Positions 14,285 through 32,035 of a stretch of DNA of 50,329 nucleotides are shown here, piece after piece; the stretch's first letter is position 1, and the number at the start of each line of letters is the position of its first letter. Location: assembly GCA_017474385.1 (NCBI GenBank), contig JAFVHU010000038.1:1-50329 (forward strand), given 5' to 3'. Source of the stretch: Afipia sp. GTDB lineage: Bacteria; Pseudomonadota; Alphaproteobacteria; Rhizobiales; Xanthobacteraceae. A program made the translations under genes and the position numbers. Below the pieces are notes generated by a model, which was not told the origin of the DNA, did not search any database, and saw only the letters and a program-made list of their open reading frames with translations.

Positions 14285-14352
14285 GGCGCGACAGTTACGA
14301 CATCGCGCGACGAAAGTAACGTCTCCACTTCCGGAGTTGTCTCCGCTGTAGA

Positions 14353-14440
14353 TGTCATCACCGGGCTTGTCCCGGTGATCCCGATTGATGAAGCACTTTG
14401 CCCTGATAATCGAGATGGCCGGGACAAGCCCGGCCATGAC
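14353..14440. repeat. Intergenic palindromic repeat, copy 3
   Basis: TGTCATCACCGGGCTTGTCC at the left end is identical to copy 1 over those bases; the right hairpin GGCCGGGACAAGCCCGGCC ends in ATGACA. It lies between rlmJ and the RNase T2 gene (both minus strand). Confidence 0.85.
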
Positions 14441-14472
14441 AATCTAAACTTATGTTGGGCTTGGCAGCGAAC

Positions 14473-16880: not shown

Positions 16881-17001
16881 CCTCACCTCTCCCCGCCTAC
16901 GGGGAGAGGTCGAAGACTGAGCAAAGCGAAGTCTTCGGGTGAGGGGGATTTTTAGGATTGCCCCTCACCCCAACCCTCTCCCCGTAAGCACGGGGCGAGG
17001 G
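16881..17001. repeat. Large palindromic repeat of the CCTCACC/CTCCCCG type
   Basis: CCTCACCTCTCCCCG and GGGGAGAGG form one hairpin, CCTCTCCCCG with CGGGG-CGAGG another, and the GGGTGAGGGG at 16938 pairs with CCCCTCACCCC at 16971, so the whole is a branched long palindrome. It has the same design, and partly the same sequence, as the element found inside ileS at 30353-30466. It lies between convergent genes. Confidence 0.85.
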
Positions 17002-20123: not shown

Positions 20124-20214
20124 GAGGCTCGATGTATCGCGGTGTAGGGCGACGTCACATTACAAATGATACAAGGGGTTACCAGTGGACACGGAGACGG
20201 GCAAGCACACAGGC

Positions 20215-20304
20215 CGTCATGGCCGGGCTCGTCCCGGCCATCCACGCCTTGTTTGTTGCATGTTCTGAAAGACGTGGATGCCCGGAACAAGTCCGGGCAT
20301 GACG
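20215..20304. repeat. Intergenic palindromic repeat, copy 5
   Basis: GTCATGGCCGGGCTCGTCCC at the left and GGAACAAGTCCGGGCATGAC at the right, with a complementary middle: GCCATCCACGCCTT and GACGTGGATGCCC. Lies between tadG and hisS (both minus). Confidence 0.85.
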
Positions 20305-22630: not shown

Positions 22631-23974
22631 TTGAATATTCAGCACCCTCGCTCGACTGTCGCGACGCCGAACGACCTTGACGCTTTCTGGATGCCGTTCA
22701 CGGCCAACCGGGCGTTCAAGGCCAGGCCGCGCATGCTCGCCGGCGCCAAGGACATGTACTACTTCACCACCGATGGCCGCAGCATCCTCGACGGCGCTGC
22801 TGGCATGTGGTGCAGCAATGCAGGCCATAACCGCGACCCGATCGTGAACGCGATCCAGAAGCAGGCCGCGACCCTCGACTACGCGCCACCGTTCCAGTTC
22901 GGCCATCCGCAGGCCTTCGAGCTTGCCAGCCGCATCGCCGCGCTGGCGCCGAAGGGTCTTGAGCATGTGTTTTTCTGCAACTCCGGTTCCGAAGCGGTCG
23001 ATACCGCGCTGAAGGTGGCGCTGGCCTATCACAACGGCCGCGGCGAGGCCGGACGCACCCGGCTGATCGGCCGCGAGCGCGGCTATCACGGCGTCGGCTT
23101 CGGCGGTATTTCCGTCGGCGGCATGGTCAACAACCGCAAGATGTTCGGCACGCTGCTGACCGGCGTCGATCACCTGCCGACCACCTATGACCGCGAAAAG
23201 CAGGCCTTCACCAAGGGCGAGCCGGAGTATGGCGCGCATTTCGCCGACGAACTCGAACGCATCGTCGGAATTCATGGTCCCGGCACCGTTGCCGCCGTGA
23301 TCGTCGAGCCGATGGCGGGGTCCACGGGCGTGGTGGTGACGCCGAAGGGCTATCTCGAGCGGCTGCGCGCGATCTGCGACAAGCACGGCATCCTGCTGAT
23401 CTTCGACGAAGTCATCACCGGCTACGGCCGCCTCGGCTATGCCTTCGCGGCCGAGCGCTACGGCGTGCTGCCGGACATGATCACCTTCGCCAAGGGCGTC
23501 ACCAACGGCGCGGTGCCGATGGGCGGCGTCCTGATCCGCGACGAGATCTACGACTCATTCATGAAGGGCCCGGGCCACGTCATCGAACTGTTCCACGGCT
23601 ACACCTACTCGGCGCATCCGCTGGCCTGCGCGGCCGGTCTCGCCACCCTCGACATCTACCGCGAGGAAGGCTTGTTCGAGCGCGCCAGGGCGATGGAACC
23701 GAAATGGGCCGACGCCGTGATGGCGCTGCGCAACGAGCCGAACGTGGTGGACATCCGCACCGTCGGCATCACCGCCGGCATTGATCTCGCGCCCAACAAG
23801 GAAGGGCCCGGCAAGCGCGGCTTCGAGGCGCTGGACTCGGCGTTCCATGACAACGACCTGATGATCCGCGTGGCGGGCGACACCTTGTGCCTGACCCCGC
23901 CCCTGATCGTCTCCGAAAGCCAGGTCGGCGAGATCATGGACAAGGTCGCCAAGGTGATCCGCGCGGTCGCCTAA
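22631..23974 (+). CDS. Class III aminotransferase, omega-amino acid:pyruvate type
   Basis: PLP-dependent transaminase of 447 residues (fold type I, class III). The start is TTG at 22631 (GGAAGGAACGACC just before it); the conserved part starts at DLDAFWMPFTANR. The PLP lysine lies in FAKGVTNGAVPMGG, preceded by the class III signature LLIFDEVITGYGRLG. The wording is close to beta-alanine/taurine:pyruvate aminotransferases of alphaproteobacteria, which hand omega-amino groups to pyruvate. Substrate preference is inferred. Promoter sequences are in the 170 bases before it; divergent from the tadE-type gene. Confidence 0.93.
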   Translation: MNIQHPRSTVATPNDLDAFWMPFTANRAFKARPRMLAGAKDMYYFTTDGRSILDGAAGMWCSNAGHNRDPIVNAIQKQAATLDYAPPFQFGHPQAFELASRIAALAPKGLEHVFFCNSGSEAVDTALKVALAYHNGRGEAGRTRLIGRERGYHGVGFGGISVGGMVNNRKMFGTLLTGVDHLPTTYDREKQAFTKGEPEYGAHFADELERIVGIHGPGTVAAVIVEPMAGSTGVVVTPKGYLERLRAICDKHGILLIFDEVITGYGRLGYAFAAERYGVLPDMITFAKGVTNGAVPMGGVLIRDEIYDSFMKGPGHVIELFHGYTYSAHPLACAAGLATLDIYREEGLFERARAMEPKWADAVMALRNEPNVVDIRTVGITAGIDLAPNKEGPGKRGFEALDSAFHDNDLMIRVAGDTLCLTPPLIVSESQVGEIMDKVAKVIRAVA

Positions 23975-23980
23975 GATTTT

Positions 23981-24106
23981 TGTCATGGCCGGGTTTATCC
24001 CGGCCATCTCGACTGCCGAGACATCGTGCTCCGGTTATCGGGATCACCGGGACATAGGCGAGCGAAAGCGACGCCGTCCTTCAGACGGCTATGCCCGGTG
24101 ATGACA
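23981..24106. repeat. Intergenic palindromic repeat, copy 6 (composite)
   Basis: Outer arms TGTCATGGCCGGGTTTATCC and CCCGGTGATGAC; between them an inner unit GACGCCGTCC-TT-CAGACGGC of the same kind as in the element at 27066-27130. So this copy looks like one palindrome nested inside another. It lies between the aminotransferase and the EAL protein genes. Confidence 0.85.
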
Positions 24107-28951: not shown

Positions 28952-31900
28952 ATGTCCGACAAGCCCCAAAAGTCCGTTGCCCCCAAAGCCGACGGCAACG
29001 ACTACTCCAGCACTCTTTATCTGCCGCAGACCGAGTTTCCGATGCGCGCGGGCCTGCCCCAGCAGGAGCCCAAAATTCTGGCGCGCTGGAACGAGATCGA
29101 CCTGTACGGCAAGCTGCGCGAGGCTGCGAAGGACCGCGCGAAATTCGTGCTGCATGACGGCCCGCCCTACGCCAACGGCAACATCCATATCGGCCACGCG
29201 CTCAACAAGATCCTCAAGGACGTGGTGACCAAGAGCCAGCAGATGCTCGGCTTCGATTCCAACTACGTGCCGGGCTGGGACTGCCATGGCCTGCCGATCG
29301 AATGGAAGATCGAGGAAGAGTACCGCTCCAAGGGCAAGAACAAGGACGCGGTGCCGATCGTCGAATTCCGCCAGGAATGCCGGGCGTTCGCTCAGAAATG
29401 GGTCGACATCCAGCGCGAGGAATTCAAACGCCTCGGCGTGGTCGGCGACTGGTCGCATCCGTACATGACGATGACCTTTCCCGCCGAAGCACAGATCGCG
29501 CGCGAACTGATGAAGTTCGCCGCCAACGGCACGCTCTATCGCGGCTCCAAGCCGGTGATGTGGAGCGTGGTCGAGAAGACCGCGCTCGCCGAAGCTGAAA
29601 TCGAATACGAGGACTACACCTCGGATGCGGTGTGGGTGAAGTTTCCGGTCAACGCCGCGCACGGCCGTCTCGCCAAGGCTTCGGTCGTGATCTGGACCAC
29701 GACACCGTGGACACTGCCGGGTAACCGCGCCATTAGCTTCTCGCCGAAGATTTCCTACGGCCTCTACAAGATCACCGACGCGCCCGCCGACAACTGGGCC
29801 AAGACCGGCGATCTTCTGATCCTCGCCGACAAGCTGGCCGAGGACGTCTTCAAGCAGGCCCGCGTCACATCGTATGAAAAAGCCGGCGACGTCTCCGCTG
29901 ATATTCTCGATGCGATCGAGTGCAATCATCCGCTGAAAGATCTAGAAGGCGGTTACGAATTCACCGTGCCGCTGCTGGCCGGCGATCATGTCACCGACGA
30001 CACCGGCACCGGCTTTGTGCATACGGCGCCTAGCCACGGCCGCGAGGACTTCGATGTCTGGACCGCGAATGCGCGCGAACTCGAAGCGCGCGGCATCAAC
30101 TCGGTCATCCCCTACACTGTCGATGCGGACGGCGCGCTGACCGAGCACGCGCCGGGCTTCACCGGCAAGCGCGTGCTCACCGACAAGGGCGAGAAGGGCG
30201 ACGCCAACGAGGCCATCATCAAGGCGCTGGCCGAGCGCGGCATGCTGCTCGCCCGCTCGCGCCTCAAGCACCAGTATCCGCATTCGTGGCGCTCGAAGAA
30301 GCCGGTGATCTATCGCAACACGCCGCAATGGTTCATCGCGATGGACAAACCCTTTTCTCTTCCCTCCCCCCTTGCGGGGGAGGGTCAGGGAGGGGGGGAG
30401 TCGCAAACGCTGGCGGCCGCTGTCACCCCCACCCCCAACCCCTCCCCGCAAGGGGGAGGGGAGCAAAAAGAAACGCTGCGCGCCCGCGCGTTGCAGGCGA
30501 TCAGCGTCACACGCTGGGTGCCCGAACAGGGTCAGAACCGCATCACCGGCATGATTGCAGGCCGCCCGGACTGGGTGATCTCACGCCAGCGCGCGTGGGG
30601 CGTGCCCATCACGGTGTTCGTGCGCGAAAAGGGCGACGGCTCCGCCGAGATTTTGCAGGACGAGGCCGTCAACAAGCGGATCGCCGACGCCTTCGAGAAG
30701 GAAGGCGCAGATGCCTGGTACGTCGAGGGCGCGCGCGAGCGTTTCCTCGGCTCGCATGCCAACGAGGAATGGCAGAAGGTCAATGACATCTGCGACGTCT
30801 GGTTCGACTCGGGTTCGACCCACGCCTTCGTGCTCGAAGATCCGGTACATTTCCCGGGCCTCGCCGGTATCAAGCGCAAGGTCGATGGCGGCAACGACAC
30901 CGTGATGTATCTCGAAGGCAGCGACCAGCATCGCGGCTGGTTTCACTCCTCGCTGCTGGAAAGCTGCGGCACCCGCGGCCGCGCGCCGTATGACGTGGTG
31001 CTGACTCACGGCTTCACGCTCGACGAGAACGGCCGCAAGATGTCGAAGTCGCTCGGAAACACCACCGAGCCGCAGAAGGTGATCTCGCAGTCCGGCGCCG
31101 ACATCCTGCGGCTGTGGGTTTGCGCGACCGACTATGCCGACGACCAGCGCATCGGCCCGGAAATCCTCAAGAACACCATCGAGACCTATCGCAAGCTGCG
31201 CAACACGATCCGCTGGATGCTCGGCACGCTGCATCACTTCAAGCGCAGCGACGCCGTGTCCTACAGCGAGATGCCGGAGCTGGAACGGCTGATGCTGCAT
31301 CGCCTGTCCGAGGTCGATGCCATCATTCGCCCAGCCTACGCGAACTTCGACTACAAGACGGTGATCGCGACGCTGGCGAACTTCATGAACACCGAACTGT
31401 CGGCGTTCTACTTCGACATCCGCAAGGACATGCTGTACTGCGATCCGCCGTCGTCGGTGGAGCGCAAGGCCGCGCTCACCACCGTGGACATTCTGTGCGA
31501 CTCGATCCTGAAGTGGCTCGCGCCCGCTGTCAGTTTCACCGCCGACGAAGCCTGGACCATGTATCGTCCCGACGCCGAACCCTCGGTGCATCTGACCACG
31601 TTCCGCGACGACCTCGACCGCTTCCGCGACGACGCTCTCGCCAAGAAATGGGAGACCATCCGCGAGGTGCGCCGGGTGGTCACCGGCGCGCTGGAAGTGG
31701 AACGCGCCGCCAAGCGCATCGGTTCGTCGCTGGAAGCCTCGCCGCTGGTCTACGTCTCCGACAAGGCGGTGTTCGCGACGCTGTTCGACGTCGATCTCGC
31801 GGAAGTCTGCATCACATCGAATGCCATGATCACGAACGAAGATGCGCCCGCGGGCGCGTTCACGCTGAACGATGTGCCCGGCGTTGCCGTCGTCGTCGAA

Positions 31901-32035
31901 AAGGCTGTCGGCACCAAGTGCGCGCGCTCCTGGAAGATTCTTCCGACCGTCGGGAGCGATCCCGAATATCCGGACGTCTCGCCTCGCGATGCCGAAGCGC
32001 TGAGGGAGTGGAAGGCGCTGGGAGTCGGTGTGTGA
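28952..32035 (+). CDS. ileS: Isoleucyl-tRNA synthetase, with an in-frame repeat insertion
   Basis: Class I synthetase that charges tRNA-Ile and edits valine; 1027 residues. The HIGH motif is in [15 protein letters not shown] (about residue 75), the CP1 editing domain spans about residues 200-440, and KMSKS is in [10 protein letters not shown] (about residue 700). Residues 468-506 (bases 30353-30466) are Gly/Pro-rich translation of a palindromic repeat, placed where E. coli IleRS has only SMDQKGLRAQ; without it the protein would be near the usual ~990. The C-terminal Cys zinc finger is reduced to KCARSWK. The GTGA at 32032 couples it to lspA. Confidence 0.96.
30353..30466. repeat. Palindromic repeat inserted in ileS
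   Basis: Left arm CCCTCCCCCCTTGCGGGGGA forms a hairpin; right arm CTCCCCGCAAGGGGGAGGGG forms another; the two arms are inverted copies of each other around a 45-base middle. Length 114 bases (38 codons), no stop codon in the ileS frame, and flanking ileS sequence is continuous on both sides. Same type as the intergenic element at 16881-17001. Confidence 0.9.

Follow-up and report, generated by a model that had tools for sequence, protein, structure and literature searches.

Rickettsia palindromic elements (RPE) enter genes in frame, housekeeping genes included, and the Rhizobium-specific intergenic mosaic elements (RIME) are palindromic mosaic repeats that lie between genes. A 2024 review describes the RPE as dispersed palindromic repeats of about 150 bp and regards it as merely conceivable that RPE-like elements alter proteins in other prokaryotes (PMC10969869). 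According to another report, CGTC-tagged REPs predominate in alphaproteobacteria, have no dedicated transposase and sometimes lie inside ORFs, their in-gene targets being genes for DNA repair, RNA helicase, tRNA synthetase and pseudouridine synthase; its main text leaves ileS unnamed and reports a shared site only for recB of two Xanthomonas (PMC3733652). As far as these two sources go, in-frame genic palindromes have precedents in Rickettsia and among the REPs of several species (PMC10969869, PMC3733652), and no paper on palindromes in ileS was found in the open-licence literature searched. What is new is a single site that has recurrently trapped palindromes of different kinds, collapsed forms among them.

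The locus described here lies in a 50,329-nt stretch of DNA from Afipia sp. (GCA_017474385.1, contig JAFVHU010000038.1), hereafter the window, whose host genome, labelled G000, is a draft of 4.48 Mb in 162 contigs and 84% complete; the best named matches for the isoleucyl-tRNA synthetase (IleRS) of the window come from Afipia. As the initial annotation had claimed, a palindromic element lies within the ileS frame and brings no stop, the whole ORF reading through it (Table 1). The same annotation held that the synthetase tolerates the element. The ORF is indeed intact and carries what we take to be the HIGH and KMSKS motifs, their residues invariant or nearly so in the IleRS alignment, and an anchor search of G000 (84% complete) revealed no second ileS with the same anchors; the insert-bearing enzyme may therefore be expected to be active, as judged from its sequence.

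Table 1. Palindromic features of the window and the gene that holds the insert
Feature	Positions	Strand	Basis
ileS, isoleucyl-tRNA synthetase, 1027 aa, intact	28952..32035	+	PDB IleRS matches; Foldseek top matches are IleRS
Segment that the nearest relative lacks, residues 467-507, 123 nt	30350..30472	+	alignment with G018
Family A (subtype A1) core of the dispersed palindromic element, 105 nt	30361..30465	+	alignment with own-genome and genus copies
Left hairpin, CCCTCCCCCC-TTGC-GGGGGAGGG	30362..30384	.	by reading
Right hairpin, CCCCTCCCC-GCAA-GGGGGAGGGG	30439..30461	.	by reading
Stretch named by the initial annotation: the core with 8 nt of flank before it and 1 nt after	30353..30466	+	
Second palindrome, resembling the ileS insert in build without being a close copy	16881..17001	.	

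The element had been measured at 114 bases, or 38 codons. A palindromic stretch of that extent is real, but the core shared with other copies spans 105 nt and the net gain of the protein is 29 codons. The core contains two hairpins, of which the right is a near-complement and at the same time a partial direct repeat of the left. The 114-nt segment has the strongest fold in ileS (MFE -78.2 kcal/mol, against a mean of -39.7 and an sd of 6.4 for other 114-nt ileS stretches taken in steps of 19 nt), and since its sequence also recurs in the same genome, chance is ruled out as the source of the palindrome. That the reading frame is free of stops is unsurprising in itself, because the element is open in four of the six frames, all three forward ones among them. 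The branched-palindrome likeness that had been drawn to a second palindromic element of the window (last row of Table 1) stands mainly for the design: direct BLAST between the two aligns 27 nt at 81% (E 1e-4), with weaker matches besides, the MFE structure of the ileS insert is one long interrupted hairpin and that of the second element several hairpins, and the second element is absent from the matches of the whole-genome search with the ileS insert. A scan of the window against Rfam gave no match. Elsewhere in the window there are palindrome pairs with GTCATNNCCGGGCTTGNCCCGGNNATCC (1785-1878, 2774-2867, 14346-14441, 20208-20303 and 23974-24068), which are likely to be CGTC-type REPs.

The nearest relative, G018 (IleRS 95% identical over 880 columns; sister in the tree with a support of 96), has a plain 12-residue loop (36 nt) without the element, and a native loop of 12 residues stands at the site in most of the fetched Afipia and Bradyrhizobium IleRS. 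In the window 41 residues take the place of the 12 of G018. The distance from WFIAMD to WVIS is 257 nt in the window, against 170 nt in 66 and 155 nt in nine of 93 motif-bearing rows of the fetched ileS loci (some genomes, the window included, being counted twice), and in the aligned IleRS chains of Priestia megaterium (PDB 8c9e) three residues lie between the matched flanks. Because the sister has the plain loop, most relatives have 12 residues and Priestia has three, the window insert is best read as a palindrome that took the place of the loop in this one lineage and not as a clean insertion; the native loop residues are missing, and comparison with G018 revealed no target duplication at the ileS segment. 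An alignment with relatives, the check proposed for the idea that these residues are absent elsewhere, thus came out in its favour, and the well-supported sister gives no sign that they are ancestral. Further, an AlphaFold2 model built from 59 family sequences (pLDDT 74.6, pTM 0.71; best PDB matches IleRS), which supersedes an earlier model from 24 sequences that was too poor (pLDDT 65), shows a strand at 453-462, the first part of it at low confidence, and a helix at 509-519. Residues 472-505 have a pLDDT below 50, and on this ground the insert is probably a disordered linker.

Family A is dispersed well beyond ileS. Searching G000 with the 114-nt insert, as the initial annotation had suggested, returned 20 matches at E <= 1e-3, some of them counted on both strands, which represent the copy itself and 16 other places; six of these 16 copies lie within an ORF of at least 200 aa. 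Two other full-length copies in G000 are 78% identical to the insert and one 40-nt arm is 100% identical, and among the matches listed for the genus there are many copies, some of them 85-86% identical over about 105 nt. With both strands counted and at most 40 candidates scored per genome, the family A query gave 8-61 matches in each of seven genomes, and a second kind of palindrome, here called the GTCATTCC kind, 64-78 in each of six. On plasmids, family A was matched in 30 records, three of them over at least 80% of the query and the rest over shorter parts; the top three listed belong to Methylobacterium (two) and Chelatococcus (one), and in the best 20 of the 30 the match has no annotated gene under it in 17, in a gene table that is incomplete, and three records have no annotation. 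Plasmids of Rhizobium and Sinorhizobium have short matches of about 37-50 nt, of which one, in S. meliloti pSymB, is intergenic. The claim that the repeat moves, or moved recently, finds support in a relative, G148, where copies elsewhere in the genome are 97-98% identical to the ileS insert, and in the window through the sister that is without the element. The RAYT domain (PF01797) was not found in G000 (84% complete), and within the genus it was found in three of 29 genomes and not in the other 26, G000 included; RAYT was considered as the driver of the window element and set aside, there being no PF01797 match in G000.

Other proteins carry such elements as well. A second IleRS loop, from KFPV to IWTTTPW at the entry of the editing domain, holds family A in G073 (L135) and G208 (L223), parts of these elements being found by BLAST and their full extent by reading, so that G073 has two elements, in the main and in the second loop, within one IleRS. 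Among the 33 family A copies of G148, 12 have an ORF of at least 200 aa across them, and of the ten ORFs scanned with Pfam those of an HrpB helicase (full copy), DNA polymerase I, polA (part of a copy), and an RNA pseudouridine synthase (full) have domains that flank or surround the copy; a domain on one side only was seen for an ATP-dependent DNA ligase (full) and for UvrB, where part of a copy lies in a long N-terminal extension. Three of the six ORFs in G000 were scanned. The glycyl-tRNA synthetase beta-subunit gene glyS (contig C41, L257, 771-2981, minus strand) contains an in-frame family A element, the Pfam profile matching in two stretches, the better of which starts right after the copy, and in a ribonucleotide reductase ORF a short match lies towards the C-terminus, a domain being found on just one side of it. 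For the GTCATTCC kind, 18 of 40 copies (39 in G080, one in G314) are spanned by an ORF of at least 200 aa; none of the seven of these ORFs scanned has a domain on both sides of the copy, and at L281 a gamma-glutamyltranspeptidase domain follows the copy only.

The point that the initial annotation missed is that the same IleRS loop has been struck repeatedly across the bacterial family of the window by palindromes of different kinds. An anchor pattern flanking the loop was searched in 391 genomes of this family and found in 283, the remaining 108, with no anchors within the searched gaps, being uninformative. The loop is near normal length in 225 genomes, longer by 6 to 26 aa in 40, and longer by 26 to 46 aa in 18 genomes from 10 genera; a control with the reversed pattern gave 0 in each of the three gap classes. 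Every extended loop is open in frame (18/18 of the long and 40/40 of the middle group). The 18 long inserts are palindromic, 12 of family A, five of the GTCATTCC kind and one a looser variant in G040, which is placed with the GTCATTCC kind by reading alone, its best match to another insert covering 22 nt. Shortened pieces of family A occur in at least six genomes (G127, G150, G055, G163, G009 and G197), and 17 of the 58 extended loops are not palindromic by reading. Within the single genus g28, four of 16 genomes have the full element, two have half of it, one has other sequence and nine have the plain loop. BLAST of 80 ileS loci (689 kb) found 13 copies, five in ileS, all of these in the main loop, and eight outside ileS. 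In an order-wide search of 397 genomes (378 from other families) only the window was found, which points but weakly to a restriction to its family, since at normal length the anchors fit just 19 of the 126 genomes from other families. By reading, KPF/RPF or KPI often directly precedes the element, and KPF/RPF appears to be rarer in plain loops.

In three species the element has collapsed, each keeping one hairpin in frame. Compared with the window, G009 misses 81 nt between the CCCTCCCC repeats of the two arms; G055 misses 78 nt compared with G148, and in G197, set against G143, 90 nt are missing from between CCTCCCCCT repeats, the repeats at the collapse points being read by eye. These gaps fit a collapse by slippage between the arms.

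We consider it probable that high-copy and often open palindromes keep landing in these genomes and that selection retains those that fall into permissive loops, the IleRS loop being a recurrent trap. In the lineage of the window, a high-copy two-hairpin palindromic repeat of about 105 nt (family A) would have landed in an IleRS surface loop flanked by the strand leading out of the editing domain and by the helix with which the second half of the catalytic fold begins, and would have replaced the native 12-residue loop. Being GC-rich with few stops, the palindrome could become a disordered Gly/Pro-rich linker, with the enzyme presumably staying functional. Palindromes of at least two kinds would keep arriving at the same loop and would be kept because many in-frame linkers are tolerated there; palindromes may simply be the common available insert of suitable size, and selection would remove out-of-frame and harmful landings. 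Deletion between the direct repeats of the arms might later collapse the element in frame to one hairpin, with erosion to follow. The copying itself could be driven by a transposase acting in trans, or by template switching in repair or replication.

That the insertion process prefers this DNA site, making the hot spot a matter of targeting more than of tolerance, appears unlikely to us. It would account for the same few codons being struck each time, for the identical left frame of the GTCATTCC kind (GTC ATT CCG in 5/5) and perhaps for the KPF/RPF or KPI so often read just before the element. However, the exact junctions vary by several codons, the second IleRS loop and several other genes have been struck too, and non-palindromic variation occurs in this loop too, all of which would sit better with a loop that is permissive rather than targeted.

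How many insertions the loop has received can be approached from a FastTree of 148 of the 185 fetched IleRS rows, calculated with the loop left out and after dropping seven named duplicates, 14 identical rows and, by random thinning, 16 empty Bradyrhizobium rows. Counting gains and losses alike, the full family A element needs 14 changes on this tree, nine of which well-supported branches make unavoidable; with G040 counted in, the GTCATTCC kind needs six, four of them forced. Together with the different elements and the different reading frames, the tree suggests about 13 or more insertions, a number that is soft because ileS recombines. Inserts common to non-sister genomes (G148/G093/G244/G250 and G033/G073) are 89-96% identical, and synonymous difference in these genomes is 4-12% in the insert versus 27-36% in the flanks. 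Since shared inserts are near-identical while the flanking synonymous sites diverge, short ileS tracts appear to have been exchanged between species, or the inserts homogenised, and for this reason the counts on the tree would exceed those of insertions. As to where each insert came from, ten of 16 insert clusters have own-genome matches in the sampled loci, three have none in the few own loci sampled and three are without own loci; five of the ten are closest to own-genome copies and five, the window among them, to the ileS insert of another species (over 104 nt the inserts of the window and G077 agree at 83%, whereas the best own-genome copy of the window reaches 78%). Assigning each insert an own-genome origin by similarity was, at five against five, not decisive. 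In G009 (L091, about 741-1060), the ileS of an Afipia, there is also a divergent patch in the editing domain, about 48 nt longer than its counterpart in the window; the patch is probably recombined and probably disturbs the position of G009 in the tree.

These observations bear on the view that palindromes entered ileS just once or on a few ancient occasions, were lost many times and spread between species by recombination of the gene, to which we give little credence. The near-identical inserts of non-sister genomes, the recombined patch of G009, the left junction KPFSLPSP common to G009 and the window, and the half of the testable inserts that are closer to another species' ileS insert than to the sampled own-genome copies would all be in keeping with it. 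Yet different kinds of element stand at the one site, and between clusters the end-to-end identity of full inserts does not exceed 74%, though locally, over about 90-110 nt, it rises to 82-85%. Moreover, family A is read in different frames in different hosts: TTGCGGGG and GCAAG fall at phases 1 and 2 in the window, at 2 and 0 in G077, and both at 2 in the G148 group, so that descent from one insertion would need paired frameshifts.

A palindrome of another type brings in the question of selection on the hairpin. Type C, a 36-nt palindrome of the main loop, was read in 12 of the 40 middle-group loops and in two further loci; it has been noted in the ileS of G027, G098, G172, G346, G370 and others, in several genera and partly flanked by an ATGGACA repeat. 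It was found only in ileS, seven of ten genomes giving one match (in ileS) and three giving none at two mismatches. Five of its nine pairs have changed on both sides, 93% of the cells being paired, and shuffles scored as high in 0/500 for covariation and in 2/500 for the number of such pairs, a pattern that fits either hairpin selection or template-switch repair of imperfect palindromes. That the loop of ileS serves as a landing site under selection, where an mRNA hairpin or flexible linker at the boundary of the editing and catalytic domains is beneficial, any palindrome is recruited and pairing is kept by compensatory change, nevertheless strikes us as very improbable, and so does the view that the hairpin or linker as such is selected, for example an mRNA hairpin which paces translation at the domain boundary, with palindromes recruited to it. 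The finding of type C only in ileS and its two-sided changes speak for selection, but correction by template switching would also give paired changes, and relatives have collapsed and empty forms. Most plain loops have no hairpin beyond chance: folding at z < -3 against shuffles was found in five of 100 plain loops tested versus 19 of 58 extended ones, and at z < -2 in 20 of 100 versus 27 of 58. Selection is given low weight because type D and many type C fold no better than shuffles. Finally, an assembly artefact is hardly credible: the window does come from a draft in many contigs, but the frame is preserved with ileS sequence on either side, and the single-contig genome G148 has an insert of this kind too.

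It remains to set these palindromes beside the systems described before. The likeness to Rickettsia palindromic elements put forward in the initial annotation stands for a dispersed palindrome in the frame of an essential gene, an analogy that extends to the mode of action. The element of the window is a dispersed palindromic repeat whose 105-nt core, shorter than the approximately 150 bp of the RPE, falls within a range of 100-150 bp, and by its sequence it appears to have entered ileS in frame, as did others in glyS, hrpB and further genes. The hosts differ, being Afipia and relatives with genomes of 2-11 Mb, and in the bacterial family of the window one codon site has been struck repeatedly by different kinds of element. 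For the CGTC-tagged REPs, the GTCATTCCGG...CCGGAATGAC kind resembles the superfamily, and the gene classes struck here resemble those named in that report; by reading, however, a C precedes GTC in only three of five inserts of the GTCATTCC kind, and the family A element of the window is without a CGTC end. GTAG REPs with their RAYT are likewise palindromic repeats that are sometimes intragenic, but no GTAG end was read in the window element and G000 (84% complete) gave no PF01797 match. With regard to MITEs, which have terminal inverted repeats and a target site duplication, the arms of the window element are inverted repeats, and in comparison with the sister G018 the segment replaces 36 nt with no duplication seen. 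Any likeness of family A to RIME lies in the description and in the short matches on plasmids of Rhizobium and Sinorhizobium. Palindromes that change a protein are now seen far from Rickettsia, in an essential gene and at one site that has received at least two kinds of repeat, and the empty, full and collapsed states in related species form a natural series of replicates that bears on insertion without a known transposase, on removal, and on the entry of new linkers into essential enzymes. Because the same loop took in different palindromes repeatedly in related bacteria, protein-coding palindromes are not a speciality of Rickettsia.
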